Shown one piece after another: positions 6,864 through 12,442 of a DNA stretch of 64,000 nt. The notes beneath the pieces were generated by a model. The model was not told the DNA's origin, searched no databases, and saw nothing but the letters and a program-made list of their open reading frames with translations. Both the position numbers and the translations under genes were made by a program. The stretch lies in assembly GCA_027622715.1 (NCBI GenBank), contig JAQBYN010000008.1:1-64000 (forward strand), in the 5' to 3' direction. Positions within the stretch are counted from its first letter, which is position 1, and every line of letters starts with the position of its first letter. This DNA comes from Pseudomonadota bacterium (lineage in GTDB: Bacteria; Pseudomonadota; Alphaproteobacteria; SHVP01).

Positions 6864-6964
6864 GGCGATCCCCCACCAATCATGGACCGGCGGCGTGCAA
6901 GAGCCGCCCTGAGCCCTCCATAGACCCTTTTTTGGCCCCTCGCTCAATTCGGGTGCTTACGCAT

Positions 6965-8488
6965 ATGGTTGCGCGAATTACGACCGTCGCCTTTCAGGGG
7001 ATCGACGTGCTGGATGTCGACGTGCAGGTCTCCATGGCCGGGGCGGGCGCCAGCTATTTCAATATCGTCGGCCTGCCCGACAAGGCGGTCGGTGAATCGC
7101 GCGAGCGGGTCCGCTCGGCCTTGGGGGCGTTGGGCTTGGGGCTGCCGCCCGAACGCATCACAGTCAATTTGGCGCCGGCCGATCTGTTGAAAGAGGGCAG
7201 CCATTTTGATTTGCCGATCGCGCTCGGCTTGCTGGTCGCCATGCGGGTGTTGCCGGCGGACGAAATCGACGGCTACACGGCGCTGGGTGAACTTGGGCTT
7301 GATGCGACGATTGCGCCGGTCGCCGGCGTGCTGCCGGCCGCGGTGGCTGCCAACGCACGCGGCCGCGGGCTGATCTGTCCCGCTGCCTGCGGCGGCGAGG
7401 CGGCCTGGGCCGGCGATGTCGATATCCTGGCGGCGCCCTCGTTGCTGGCCTTGATCAATCATTTCAAAGGCTTCCAGGTGCTGCAGCCGCCCAAGCCCGC
7501 ACCGCTGATCGACGGCGTGGCCGGGCCCGACTTGCGCGACATCAAGGGCCAGGAAAGCGCCAAGCGGGCATTGGAAGTGGCCGCGGCCGGCGGTCACAAC
7601 CTGCTGATGATGGGCCCGCCCGGCTCGGGCAAGTCGATGCTGGCGGCCCGCCTGCCCGGTCTGCTGCCGCCGCTCGACGCCCGCGAAACGCTGGAGGTCT
7701 CCATGGTCGCCTCGATCGCCGGGATGTTGCGCGAGGGGCGCATCACCCGGCGCCGGCCGTTTCGCGATCCCCACCACAATGCGTCGCAACCGGCAATGGT
7801 CGGCGGCGGCACCAAGGCGCGTCCGGGGGAAATTACGCTCGCGCATCTCGGGGTCCTTTTTCTCGATGAGCTGCCCGAGTTCTCGGGCGCGGTGCTCGAA
7901 TCGTTGCGCCAACCGATGGAAACCGGGTCGGTCACCATCGCGCGGGCCAACACCCACGTCACCTATCCGGCCCGCGTGCAACTGGTGGCGGCGATGAACC
8001 CGTGTCGCTGCGGCCACTTGGGCGATGCCGGACTGGCGTGCAGCCGCGCCCCGCATTGCGCGTCAACCTACCAGTCGCGCATTTCAGGCCCGCTGTTCGA
8101 CCGCATCGATCTACATATCGAAGTCCCCGCCGTCGCTGCCAGCGATCTCTCGCTCCCGCCGGCCGCCGAGGGCTCCGCCGAAGTTGCGGCCCGCGTCGCC
8201 CGTGCCCGTGCCGTTCAGACCGAGCGATACCGCAACGCTGGGACCGGCAAGCCGGTCCGCACCAACGCCGAGGCCGACGGCGAATTGTTGATGGCCGTCG
8301 CCGCGCCCGACGCGGGCGGCGCAGCGCTGCTGTCGGACGCGGTGGACGCGATGAAACTCTCGGCCCGCGCCTACCACCGCGTCTTACGCGTCGCTCGCAC
8401 CCTCGCCGACCTGGAGGGCGTGGACGCGGTGCGCCGTGTGCACATCGCCGAGGCGTTGAGTTACCGACGGTTGGCGATTCGGGCTTAG
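6965..8488 (+). CDS. comM: YifB/ComM family Mg-chelatase-like AAA+ ATPase
   Basis: 507 residues from ATG 6965, matching the family; a TTG at 6932 would add 11 residues. The N-terminal Lon-protease-like (ChlI) domain runs from MVARITTVAFQG through NIVGLPDKAVGESRERV. It is followed by an AAA+ core with Walker A GPPGSGKSM, Walker B LFLDELPEF and the MNPCRCGHLGD cysteine motif, then a C-terminal Mg_chelatase region SARAYHRVLRVARTLADLEG. ComM is a hexameric helicase that promotes branch migration during integration of transforming DNA in species such as Vibrio and Haemophilus; many non-competent bacteria also carry it. No competence genes are nearby. Confidence 0.93.
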   Translation: MVARITTVAFQGIDVLDVDVQVSMAGAGASYFNIVGLPDKAVGESRERVRSALGALGLGLPPERITVNLAPADLLKEGSHFDLPIALGLLVAMRVLPADEIDGYTALGELGLDATIAPVAGVLPAAVAANARGRGLICPAACGGEAAWAGDVDILAAPSLLALINHFKGFQVLQPPKPAPLIDGVAGPDLRDIKGQESAKRALEVAAAGGHNLLMMGPPGSGKSMLAARLPGLLPPLDARETLEVSMVASIAGMLREGRITRRRPFRDPHHNASQPAMVGGGTKARPGEITLAHLGVLFLDELPEFSGAVLESLRQPMETGSVTIARANTHVTYPARVQLVAAMNPCRCGHLGDAGLACSRAPHCASTYQSRISGPLFDRIDLHIEVPAVAASDLSLPPAAEGSAEVAARVARARAVQTERYRNAGTGKPVRTNAEADGELLMAVAAPDAGGAALLSDAVDAMKLSARAYHRVLRVARTLADLEGVDAVRRVHIAEALSYRRLAIRA

Positions 8489-8542: not shown

Positions 8543-9214
8543 ATGGAATTTTGGGAAAGCCTGATTGTTTGGCTGCACTTGTTGTTGTTCGTCTATTGGC
8601 TGGGCGGCGACTTGGGGGTGTTTTACTCCAGCCGGTTTCGTAACGATCCACAATACGATCTCAAGACGCGGTTGTTGCTCGCGCGTATTACCGGCGACAT
8701 CGACATGGCGCCGCGCACCACCATGGTGCTGATGATTCCGATCGGCTTCACGCTGGCGGCGGTCAAAGGCTATCTCACCATTCCCGATATCTGGTTGATC
8801 GCCTTTTGGGCGTTCGGTGCAGCGTGGCTGGTGTTGGTCTGGTGGCTGCATATCGAAAAAGACGCCGACAAGAAAAAGCCGTGGACCAAGTTCGATTTGC
8901 GCCTGCGTTGGGTGCTGATGCTGGTGTTGGCGGCGGCGGCGATCTACTCGTTCTTCGCGCACCAGCCGCTGACCGAAAACTGGCTCGCGCTCAAACTGCT
9001 GCTGTTTGCCGGCACCATATTGTGCGGGATCATGATTCGGGTCTCGGTCAAACCGTACGTCGCGGCGTTCGCCGAGATTCGCGAACACGGCTCGACGCCC
9101 GAGCGTGAGGCGGTCCTCAGCGCTTCTGCTGGGGCCGCACGTCAGTGGGTCAAGGCGATCTGGGTGTTGATCTCGCTGGCTGCCCTGATCGGCATTTGGC
9201 AGCCGGGCTTTTAG
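8543..9214 (+). CDS. Membrane protein, paralogue 1 of 3 (unassigned family)
   Basis: 223 residues, with five to six hydrophobic segments by eye. The N-terminus has the block HLLLFVYWLGGDLGVFY shared with the next two genes; other shared points are a Pro-x-Gly in helix 2 (IPIGFTLA), a basic loop before DLRLRW, WLALKLLLFA, CGIMIRVSV and GSTPE. The invariant histidine in the first helix could be a heme or metal ligand, as in CopD/HemJ-like membrane proteins, but I cannot assign it to either. A GGGAGGGG ribosome site precedes the ATG, partly inside a small CCCGG/CCGGG hairpin (8518-8532). It may be cotranscribed with its paralogues. Confidence 0.75.
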   Translation: MEFWESLIVWLHLLLFVYWLGGDLGVFYSSRFRNDPQYDLKTRLLLARITGDIDMAPRTTMVLMIPIGFTLAAVKGYLTIPDIWLIAFWAFGAAWLVLVWWLHIEKDADKKKPWTKFDLRLRWVLMLVLAAAAIYSFFAHQPLTENWLALKLLLFAGTILCGIMIRVSVKPYVAAFAEIREHGSTPEREAVLSASAGAARQWVKAIWVLISLAALIGIWQPGF

Positions 9215-9238
9215 CCCCGGCGTTGGACCACGGGCCGT

Positions 9239-9272
9239 CCGCCCGCTAGATTCGCGGGCGGCCCCAATTTTT
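9239..9272 (+). terminator. Hairpin with downstream T run between paralogues 1 and 2
   Basis: CCGCCCGC, a 7-base loop, then GCGGGCGG, followed after six bases by five T. The stem is strong, but the gap before the T run is longer than in a typical intrinsic terminator. It could terminate or attenuate transcription between the first and second membrane gene; the RNA end is not shown by the sequence alone. Confidence 0.45.
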
Positions 9273-9285
9273 CGCGAGCGCCACC

Positions 9286-9954
9286 ATGGACCCACAAACC
9301 ATCTGGATCATGATCCACGTCGTCTTGCTGGTGTACTGGCTCGGCGCGGACATCAGCGTGTTCTACTGCTCGCTGCAAATCATCAAGCCGGCAAATTCGC
9401 GCGAAACCCGTGCGGCCATCGCCAAGGTCCTGGGCTTCGTCAATGCCTTCCCCGGGATTGTCTCGATCCTCATGTTGCCGGTGGGTCTGATGTTGGCGTC
9501 GGGCAAAGGCCTGTCGCCGATCACCGGCGGCTGGCTCGCCTTGGTCTGGGGCTTGGCCGCAATTTGGCTGCTGATCAGCGTGTCGGCGGCCTCGCAGCGC
9601 GGCACGCCGCTGGGCAAGACCTACGCGACAATTGATTTGTGGATCCGCTACGTCCTGATCGCCGTGTTGACAATTGCGGCGCTGTTGTCGCTGACCGGCG
9701 GGGCGCCCTTCACCTCGAACTGGCTCGCGCTCAAGGTTCTATTGTTCGCCTTCGTGCTGGTTTGCGGTCTGGGCATTCGCTTCACGTTTGCCAAATTCGG
9801 TCCCGCCTTCGGGCGCTTCATGGCGGAGGGTTCGACGCCCGAAACCGAGGCCGGATTGCGCGGGCCAGTGATGCGGGTCAAGCCGTGGGTATTGGCGCTG
9901 TGGTCTGGGCTGGTCGTGATGGCGCTGCTCGGCATCGCCCAACCGTTGTTGTAG
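9286..9954 (+). CDS. Membrane protein, paralogue 2 of 3 (unassigned family)
   Basis: 222 residues, colinear with its neighbours: HVVLLVYWLGADISVFY in helix 1, LMLPVGLMLASG, WLALKVLLFAFVLVCGLGIRFTF, GSTPETE. It retains the first-helix histidine, the VYWxGxDxxVFY signature and the C-terminal GS(T/S)PxxE loop. It lacks the charged loop DKKKPW of paralogue 1. An integral inner-membrane protein with about six helices is expected. Ten bases separate it from paralogue 3, so those two are almost certainly cotranscribed. Function unknown. Confidence 0.75.
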   Translation: MDPQTIWIMIHVVLLVYWLGADISVFYCSLQIIKPANSRETRAAIAKVLGFVNAFPGIVSILMLPVGLMLASGKGLSPITGGWLALVWGLAAIWLLISVSAASQRGTPLGKTYATIDLWIRYVLIAVLTIAALLSLTGGAPFTSNWLALKVLLFAFVLVCGLGIRFTFAKFGPAFGRFMAEGSTPETEAGLRGPVMRVKPWVLALWSGLVVMALLGIAQPLL

Positions 9955-9963
9955 GAGGCGGCC

Positions 9964-10641
9964 ATGGATTGGCAGGACATCTTCAAGCTGCTGCACGTGC
10001 TCACCTTCGTCTATTGGGTGGGTGCCGATCTCGGCGTGTTCTATGCCGCGCGCTTGGTCGTGAACCCGAAATACAGCCCCGAGACGCGGGCCACGCTACT
10101 CAAGACGCTGGCGTGGATCGACATGATCCCGCGCTACATGTTGTTGCTGACATTTCCGGTGGGCGCGACGCTTGCTGCCAACCTCGGCATCTCGCCGATC
10201 GACGGCGTGTGGTTGTATCTTGTATGGATCGCCGCCGCGGCGTGGATTGTCATGGCTTGGCAAATCCATCACCGCGAAGGCACAGATGCGGCCAGGCGGC
10301 TCACCAAATTCGATCTGGTGCTGCGGCTGGCTTTCCTTGCCGCGTTGGTGATCCCGGCCATTACGTCGCTCGCCGGCGCCGGGCCCTACGAGACGCAGTG
10401 GCTGCCGATCAAGATTCTGCTGTTCGCGGGCGCCGTCGCTTGCGGCGTCGGCATCCGCGTCACCTTCACCCCGTTTGGCGCCGCCTTCGGCAAACTGATG
10501 ACCGAGGGGTCCTCGCCTGCGGTTGAGACACAGATGTCGCGGTCGTTGGCGCACGCGGTGCCGTTCGTCATCGGCATTTGGGTGTTCGCGGCGATTACCG
10601 CCTTCCTTGGCATGAACCACGAGATGCTGTTCGGGAGTTGA
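9964..10641 (+). CDS. Membrane protein, paralogue 3 of 3 (unassigned family)
   Basis: 225 residues, the last member of the triplet: HVLTFVYWVGADLGVFY, FPVGATLAA, TKFDLVLRLAF, WLPIKILLFAGAVACGVGIRVTF, GSSPAVE. It resembles paralogue 1 in the FxNPxY-like segment after helix 1 and paralogue 2 in its CGxGIR block. GGAGG ribosome site just before the ATG at 9964. It ends four bases before the start of the solute-binding protein gene, so the operon may deliver both a membrane and a periplasmic component. No family function can be given. Confidence 0.75.
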   Translation: MDWQDIFKLLHVLTFVYWVGADLGVFYAARLVVNPKYSPETRATLLKTLAWIDMIPRYMLLLTFPVGATLAANLGISPIDGVWLYLVWIAAAAWIVMAWQIHHREGTDAARRLTKFDLVLRLAFLAALVIPAITSLAGAGPYETQWLPIKILLFAGAVACGVGIRVTFTPFGAAFGKLMTEGSSPAVETQMSRSLAHAVPFVIGIWVFAAITAFLGMNHEMLFGS

Positions 10642-10645
10642 GACC

Positions 10646-12442
10646 GTGTTCCGTTGGCGCTGTGGTGCGCTCGCCGGTGTTTTGCTCGCCGGGGTTGTCG
10701 CTGCAGCGCAGGCCGAGCCGATGCATGGCATCGCCATGCACGGCGCACCGAAGTACCCGCCAGGATTCGCACATCTCGACTACGTCAATCCCGACGCGCC
10801 TAAGGGCGGCGACTTACGCCGTGGCATCCAAGGCACGTTCGATTCGCTGAACCCCTACATCCTCAAAGGCTCGCCGGCCGCAGGCCGCCAGCATGTTTTT
10901 GAGAGTTTGCTCAAGCGAGTCTGGGACGAACCCTTCACCATGTACGGACTCATTGCCGAAACGGTTGAAACGCCCGAGGACCGCAGCTGGGTCGAATTCA
11001 CGCTGCGCGCCGAAGCGCGCTTTCACGACGGCACGCCCATCACCGTCGACGACGTTATTTTCTCATACGAAACGCTGCGTGATCAGGGCCAGGCCAACAT
11101 GCGGCTGTTTTACCGCAAGGTCGCCGGCGTTGAGCGCATCGGCGCGCGCGGCGTGCGCTTCGTGTTCGACCCGGCGCAGGCTGACCGCGAATTGCCGCTG
11201 TTGATGGGCCTGATGCCGATTCTGTCCAAGGCCTATTACGCGAACCGGCCCTTCGATGAAACCACGCTCGAGCCGCCGTTGGGGAGCGGGCCCTACCGCG
11301 TCGCTGCGGTCGATCCGGGCCGCGTCATTAGCTACGAAAGGGCGCGCGATTATTGGGGCAAGGATCTGCCGATCAACCGCGGGCAAGACAACTTCGATAC
11401 CATCCACTACGAATATTTTCGCGACGGCAACGTGTTGTTCGAAGCGTTCAAGACCGGCGCCTTCGATTTTCGGGCGGAAGGATCGGCCAACCAATGGGCC
11501 ACCGGCTACGATTTTCCCGCCGTCGCTGACGGCCGGGTCAGACGTGAAGAGCTAACCAACGGACGCCCTGCCGGCATGCGGGCCTTGGTGTTCAACACCC
11601 GGCGCGACCTGTTCGCCGATCCGCGCGTGCGCGAGGCCTTGGGCTATGCCTTCGATTTCGAATGGATCAACGCCAACCTGCTGCACGGCGCCTTCGAGCG
11701 CACGACAAGCTTCTTCGCCAACTCGGAACTCGCAGCCACCGGCGATCCGACCTCGCAGGAGCTGGCGCTGCTAGAACCGCGGCGCGGCGTGCTTTCTGAC
11801 GCGGTCTTCGCCGCGCCCAAACCGCTGCCGCAGACTGACGGATCGGGCAATATTCGGGGCAATTTGCGGATTGCGCGGCAATTGCTGCAAGACGCGGGCT
11901 GGGTCGTGCGCGACGGCGCCATGGTGCGCGCGTCCAACGGCACGCCGTTCTCGTTTGAGATCCTGCTCGTCTTTCCCGAGAACGAACGCATCGCGCTCAC
12001 GTTTGCCCGCAACTTGGAGCGCCTCGGCATCAAAGTGGGCGTTCGTACGGTCGATACGGCCCAGTATGAATTTCGCCGCCAGACCTACGACTACGACATG
12101 ATCATTCATACGTGGCGCATCACGCTGTCGCCCGGCAACGAACAGGCCCACTACTGGGGCGCCGCGGCCGCCGGCCAGGACGGCACGCGCAACTATATTG
12201 GGATCAAGAGCGACGCCGTCGACGCGCTGGTCGAACAGGTCACTGCCTCGCGCGACCGCGCCCAGCTGGTTAGCGCGATGCGCGCGCTCGACCGCGTGCT
12301 GCTCGCCGGGCACTACGTCATCCCGCTCTATCACCAGCGTGTCGATCGTCTGGCCTATTGGAACAAGCTGGTGCGCCCCGAGGCGATCCCAACCTATGGT
12401 TTCGTACTCGAGGCCTGGTGGGCCAAGGACGCGGCAAACTAG
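10646..12442 (+). CDS. Periplasmic solute-binding protein, family 5, YejA-like
   Basis: 598 residues with GTG start at 10646. A signal peptide ends in AAAQA-EP with no lipobox cysteine, so the protein is predicted to be soluble periplasmic. GIAMHGAPKYPPGFAHLDYVNPDAPKGG is the characteristic opening of YejA-type binding proteins (peptide/microcin C transport), and the SBP_bac_5 core follows (GSFDSLNPY-like TFDSLNPY, VEFTLRAEARFHDGTPITVDDVIFSYE). Such proteins normally work with YejB, YejE and YejF; none is present here. The gene sits 4 bases after the membrane triplet and is followed by a convergent methyltransferase. Substrate is inferred to be a peptide or similar compound. Confidence 0.88.
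   Translation: MFRWRCGALAGVLLAGVVAAAQAEPMHGIAMHGAPKYPPGFAHLDYVNPDAPKGGDLRRGIQGTFDSLNPYILKGSPAAGRQHVFESLLKRVWDEPFTMYGLIAETVETPEDRSWVEFTLRAEARFHDGTPITVDDVIFSYETLRDQGQANMRLFYRKVAGVERIGARGVRFVFDPAQADRELPLLMGLMPILSKAYYANRPFDETTLEPPLGSGPYRVAAVDPGRVISYERARDYWGKDLPINRGQDNFDTIHYEYFRDGNVLFEAFKTGAFDFRAEGSANQWATGYDFPAVADGRVRREELTNGRPAGMRALVFNTRRDLFADPRVREALGYAFDFEWINANLLHGAFERTTSFFANSELAATGDPTSQELALLEPRRGVLSDAVFAAPKPLPQTDGSGNIRGNLRIARQLLQDAGWVVRDGAMVRASNGTPFSFEILLVFPENERIALTFARNLERLGIKVGVRTVDTAQYEFRRQTYDYDMIIHTWRITLSPGNEQAHYWGAAAAGQDGTRNYIGIKSDAVDALVEQVTASRDRAQLVSAMRALDRVLLAGHYVIPLYHQRVDRLAYWNKLVRPEAIPTYGFVLEAWWAKDAAN

Follow-up and report, generated by a model that had tools for sequence, protein, structure and literature searches.

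We analyzed a window of 64,000 nucleotides from an alphaproteobacterial genome (lineage SHVP01; contig JAQBYN010000008.1), in which three adjacent genes encode related membrane proteins. The locus contains the following features, with residues numbered here and throughout as in copy 3.

6932..8488, + strand: presumed ComM/YifB-like Mg-chelatase-type ATPase, judged by its sequence; ends 54 bases upstream of copy 1
8543..9214, + strand: copy 1, six-TM membrane protein of 223 aa; ORF with the shared motifs present, keeping D53 and R57
9215..9285, + strand: gap of 71 nt between copies 1 and 2, with a terminator-like strong G+C hairpin followed by TTTTT (from sequence and folding)
9286..9954, + strand: copy 2, 222 aa; ORF in which G24, D53, and R57 are now S, N, and G, and H11, W18, R42, P56, W94, W146, and K150 are kept
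9964..10641, + strand: copy 3, 225 aa; ORF used for the structure model
10646..12442, + strand: SBP_bac_5 periplasmic solute-binding protein, 598 aa (Pfam SBP_bac_5), presumably YejA-like, judged by its sequence

The sequence-only reading of this stretch had described three adjacent genes of 222 to 225 residues, and the forward-strand ORFs bear this out. All three copies carry the motifs it listed, namely, the helix-1 His, VYW[LV]G[GA]D[LI][GS]VFY, WLxxK[LVI]LLFA, CGxxIR, and GS[TS]PxxE. The copies align end to end, with a single internal gap of one residue near the N terminus, and share pairwise identities of 38%, 40%, and 40% over nearly their full length; because the BLASTP E values range from 4e-47 to 4e-59, they are related far above chance. 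Relative to the nearest relative (G029, same genus), dN/dS was 0.07, 0.10, and 0.08 for copies 1, 2, and 3, respectively, showing that each copy is a genuine gene maintained by purifying selection. A fourth, more distant paralogue (32% identical) lies elsewhere in the same genome, on contig C67.

The binding-protein gene begins where it had been placed, 4 bases downstream of the triplet, with a GTG start at 10646 after a copy 3 stop codon that ends at 10641. Its match to SBP_bac_5 is strong (E 4e-68; 230.6 bits against a Pfam cutoff of 32.4). The function of the upstream ATPase is probably unrelated to the triplet. The hairpin between copies 1 and 2 was not flagged by our pattern scan, which had a loop limit of 8 bases. 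A similar hairpin occupies the same gap in the nearest relative (locus L006), and different strong hairpins occupy it in loci L036 and L037. It is a possible attenuator, and as a guess it might set the ratios of the copies.

Conserved residues and predicted topology

We counted conservation in 130 family sequences. H11, W18, G20, R42, P56, W94, and K150 are invariant (130/130), and G67 is found in 129/130, W146 in 123/130 (95%), D53 in 122/130, and R or K at position 57 in 122/130. The conserved His and Asp emphasized in the sequence-only reading are kept across these wider homologues (H11 in 130/130, an Asp at position 22 in 127/130, or 98%), and the absence of His/Asp conservation that it had named as a refutation did not occur. 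One face of helix 1 carries H11, W18, and D22, at spacings of 7 and 11 residues.

Positive charge is concentrated in segments 33-53, 104-118, and 166-197; on this bias, which is the sole basis of the predicted topology, these loops would lie inside the cell and both termini (N and C) outside it. The outer part of the membrane would then hold H11 and K150, and its inner part R42, D53, and R57. An AlphaFold2 model of copy 3, built with 91 homologues (mean pLDDT, 96.5; pTM, 0.90), has helices at 3-32, 39-52, 54-73, 81-103, 108-136, 146-181, and 185-223. The second of these is short, and the other six span the membrane. As a partner for H11 in binding heme or a metal, K150 is a better candidate than D22.

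A sequence search of the PDB gave no significant match for copies 1 to 3, and a Foldseek search of the model against the PDB gave no entry with an E value below 0.001. Because HemJ also lacks a solved relative in the PDB by sequence search, the fold search neither confirms nor excludes the superfamily assignment described below.

Kinship with DUF2269 and HemJ

Searches of Pfam and NCBIfam matched copies 1 to 3 to no family. The Pfam models of HemJ (UPF0093, PF03653) and CopD (PF05425) matched none of the copies, and the DUF2269 model (PF10027) gave no match at E 1 for any copy, so that its gathering cutoff was not reached. We took as noise a DUF6223 match of copy 2 (E 0.0045, below the cutoff) and an EPS_sugtrans match (E 0.15). 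Among the Pfam families tested, none includes these proteins. To this extent the earlier statement that it could not be placed stands, but profile-profile comparison puts it near DUF2269.

These comparisons used purpose-built alignments. Earlier, small DUF2269 and HemJ alignments were unstable (8 to 93% for DUF2269), and a set of 40 DUF2269 proteins from two samples settled the DUF2269 result. The family profile matched this set with a probability of 97% (E 1.3e-10; score, 74; 172 columns), compared with 10 to 12% (E 0.003; score, 27 to 28) for the reversed-profile control and scores of 12 to 22 for eight unrelated membrane families. HemJ matched the same DUF2269 set at 95% (E 3.7e-8; score, 54; reversed, 16), whereas the direct match between the family and HemJ was weak (1 to 12%). 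Thus, of the HMM-HMM comparisons proposed in the sequence-only reading, the one with DUF families gave a relative, and HemJ was reached through it. The direct comparison with CopD was likewise weak (13 to 25%; a partial match over helices 3 to 6 at 14%, with a score of 33 and 20 reversed), and no copper genes were seen among the scanned neighbors. CopD as a direct relative is therefore unsupported, its profile match not being significant, and so is PuuD, which matched at 2% with a score of 22 against 20 reversed. Homology between the family and DUF2269 is well supported by these profiles, and the family appears linked to HemJ by transit through DUF2269.

The residues agree with this kinship. 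DUF2269 and the family have the helix-1 His, G20/G24, an Asp before helix 2, G67, and a helix-3 Trp at matching places; H11, D53, and G67 in the family correspond to H11, D52, and G67 in DUF2269, with a His-to-Gly spacing of 56 in both. On the other hand, DUF2269 proteins, at ∼155 aa compared with 225 aa here, cannot hold all six helices, and conservation of the helix-1 Trp and of Lys150 does not extend to them. DUF2269, which forms the bridge to HemJ, is itself a family of unknown function. With HemJ, the family shares H-x6-W in helix 1, a Pro and a Gly in helix 2, and a W-x3-K motif, and hhalign paired the two W-x3-K motifs with each other. H16, W88, and K92 are each conserved at 100% in 28 HemJ sequences, and their counterparts here are H11 (100%), W146 (95%), and K150 (100%; n = 130). 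In cyanobacterial HemJ, a conserved His and Lys are essential. However, the YLPRLxVYH and C-terminal NE-P blocks of HemJ are absent from all three copies and from the conserved positions of the family, and a normal HemJ is encoded elsewhere in the host genome (contig C42; E 3e-58), separate from the triplet. The same genome also encodes a second, diverged HemJ homologue (C57:88029-88445, L268; E 4e-24).

HemJ is named as a b-type heme protein in the title of Skotnicova 2018, as cited in PMC8587615 and PMC11426539. PuuD is a membrane urate oxidase with a predicted N-out topology, and DUF989, its urate oxidase domain, is reported to be distantly similar to DUF2269 (P 1e-6) (PMC4562309). PuuD (Urate_ox_N, PF06181) resembles the present family in this predicted topology, in a conserved cytoplasmic loop after helix 1, and in its catabolic gene context. 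It differs in having eight helices and a cytochrome c domain, whereas the family protein, with 225 aa, has six membrane helices and no CXXCH. HemJ and PuuD, the members of the group with known function, are membrane oxidases. By analogy with the DUF2269/HemJ relatives, it is plausible that the family binds heme or a metal. A short Urate_ox_N-like protein of ∼209 aa, matching two parts of the model only, is encoded in the host genome (C1:73525-74004, L206), and the same short form occurs in many alphaproteobacteria of the sample.

Distribution, triplet history, and gene neighborhoods

The family is real, yet its distribution is patchy. It was present in 14 of the 289 genomes of a class-wide sample and in 4/398 of a phylum-wide one, and among 84,980 species genomes scanned, 212 relatives were confirmed and 80 of them kept. 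These relatives come from Alpha- and Gammaproteobacteria, Myxococcota, and Actinomycetota (Nocardia, Nonomuraea, and Nocardioides), and large sphingomonad plasmids, some of them conjugative, also bear the gene. One contig labeled as a Klebsiella pneumoniae MAG (L073) groups with Steroidobacteraceae-like sequences both in the tree and by gene order, and its label is probably wrong.

Each copy of the triplet forms its own clade over the same nine genomes (support of 100/99 for copy 1, 100/98 for copy 2, and 100/98 for copy 3), and therefore the triplication happened once and the order was kept. Among the 130 sequences, copy 2 accounts for every loss of D53 (8/8), every non-basic change of R57 (8/8), and every residue other than Gly at position 24 (7/7); in the deepest triplet branch (L037), copy 2 retains the ancestral residues. 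Copy 3 mostly lacks L19 and the KP end (K219 and P220). The invariant core is kept in all copies, and because copy 2 alone lost G24, D53, and R57 while retaining this core, the copies are not interchangeable.

One alternative is that the three copies are redundant duplicates that raise gene dosage and form no joint complex. The invariant core in every copy, with which each could act alone, and the single copy found in most relatives would agree with this. Against it stand the one ancient triplication, with its order kept in nine genomes at supports of 100/98 to 100/99, and the changes that copy 2 (G24, D53, and R57) and copy 3 (L19, K219, and P220) each show at sites conserved elsewhere, and we consider redundancy quite improbable. 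The asymmetry of the copies, together with their linkage, instead suggests a division of labor, most simply within one complex, and noninterchangeable copies fit a hetero-oligomer. The earlier suggestion of a hetero-oligomer thus gains support from the single ancient triplication, the fixed order, and the losses specific to copy 2, which bear on an assembly that we infer.

A binding-protein gene with 57 to 87% identity lies downstream of the triplet in 7/8 other loci, or 8/9 with this one. The remaining locus (L036, in genome G258) lacks it, and a methyltransferase gene on the reverse strand comes next. The binding protein is thus the usual companion of the triplet but not an obligatory one, and a functional partnership between them may exist. 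This arrangement raises an alternative without redox chemistry, in which the triplet and the YejA-like binding protein work together in transport or sensing and the triplet supplies the membrane component. In addition to the position of the binding-protein gene directly after copy 3 in 8/9 triplet loci, an SBP_bac_5 gene also lies just downstream of a distant single copy (L105), which it overlaps by ∼16 bases; an ABC permease and ATPase are absent from the triplet operon; and TRAP or MFS transporter genes lie close to other family members. However, one triplet does without the binding protein, most members outside the triplet adjoin enzymes rather than binding proteins, and the relatives of known function are oxidases. 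Further, the same genome carries two tandem paralogues of the binding protein (51% and 48%) with genes for two permeases and a double ATPase downstream (C72:77390-80994, L265), and the binding protein of the triplet could feed that transporter. On balance, a system of transport or sensing alone seems rather unlikely.

Across the family, the gene neighborhoods consist of catabolic clusters with many redox enzymes, and they differ by clade. In many Gammaproteobacteria, a redoxin gene lies immediately upstream of the family gene, with TRAP transporter genes before the redoxin. A FAD_binding_4 oxidase adjoins the family gene in three clades (L009/L097; L011/L090/L094; and L012 with Aquidulcibacter), followed in the last of these by an aldehyde dehydrogenase. 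In marine Alphaproteobacteria, genes for an SDR, a PuuE-like deacetylase, and an enoyl-CoA hydratase lie downstream, and in Steroidobacteraceae and their kin, the family gene stands head-to-head with an alpha/beta-hydrolase. The fourth copy in the host genome adjoins an SDR and two double alpha/beta-hydrolases. Single cases include a CoA-transferase (CoA-transferase III), a cupin, MsrP, and cytochrome b561. On sphingomonad plasmids, the gene lies between an alpha/beta-hydrolase and a DUF3108-labeled gene, in a cluster type that also contains CoA-transferase, LeuCD-like, HMG-CoA lyase, and FAD oxidoreductase genes; the plasmid contexts rest on annotation in 2/6 of the plasmid regions opened.

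Several further observations concern these neighborhoods. In several Gammaproteobacteria, the last part of the family gene is overlapped by a gene for a protein of ∼242 aa that matches nothing in Pfam (L040:8624-9352 and relatives), and on plasmid pJE1, the DUF3108-labeled gene occupies the same place. A replacement of MsrQ by the family protein beside MsrP in L101 is unsupported, as a Ferric_reduct protein of MsrQ size lies elsewhere in that genome. Long ORFs at L100, L071, L087, and L063, considered as fusions, contain none of the known domains; they probably reflect read-through of GC-rich DNA.

The proximity of dehydrogenases suggests another alternative, in which the family provides electron-transfer (quinone-reducing) membrane subunits for soluble dehydrogenases and does not itself oxidize a substrate. 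FAD-linked oxidase (GlcD-like) genes lie within a few bases in three separate clades, and SDR genes follow in marine alphaproteobacteria. The triplet, however, has no adjoining flavoprotein, and the types of partner vary widely. We regard this explanation as unlikely.

A putative heme oxidoreductase

Taken together, we consider that the family most likely comprises membrane oxidoreductases of catabolic gene clusters, perhaps binding heme b. In the mechanism that we propose, they would be unnamed integral-membrane oxidoreductases of the HemJ/DUF2269 superfamily, extended to six helices. Together with Lys150 and Trp146 of helix 5, the helix-1 His11 would lie near the periplasmic side, and it would bind a b-type heme, as HemJ does. 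Oxidation of a substrate or of a partner dehydrogenase would take place at the cytoplasmic face (Arg42, Asp53, and Arg57), and electrons would travel via the heme to a quinone or a periplasmic acceptor, with separate subfamilies serving separate catabolic gene clusters. Copies 1 and 3 have the full conserved set, and copy 2, without the Asp53/Arg57 pair and Gly24, would be a specialized middle subunit; the three would probably form one hetero-oligomeric complex, usually accompanied by the YejA-like binding protein. Counting against this mechanism, the family has no significant direct profile match to HemJ, CopD, or PuuD, it lacks the YLPRLxVYH signature of HemJ, and the operon studied here has no dehydrogenase and only the binding protein. 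Moreover, because the neighbors vary from clade to clade, no single substrate follows.

We hold this mechanism, that of a heme-containing membrane oxidoreductase with a hetero-oligomeric triplet, tentatively, at somewhat short of an even chance, and we are more confident of the kinship with DUF2269 and HemJ, as judged from sequence profiles. A bolder version is unlikely: that the triplet is an undescribed membrane heme oxidoreductase, a hetero-oligomer in which one specialized subunit joins two complete ones, and that the family as a whole constitutes a widespread new class of membrane oxidases serving catabolic pathways, each subfamily having a substrate of its own as PuuD has urate.

If our reading is correct, an unnamed family would be added to a small set of membrane oxidases, HemJ and PuuD among them, and DUF2269 would gain a functional context. 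The seven invariant residues and the natural variant in copy 2 would then be open to direct testing, and the family would be a candidate electron outlet for many uncharacterized catabolic clusters in Alpha- and Gammaproteobacteria and in Actinomycetes.
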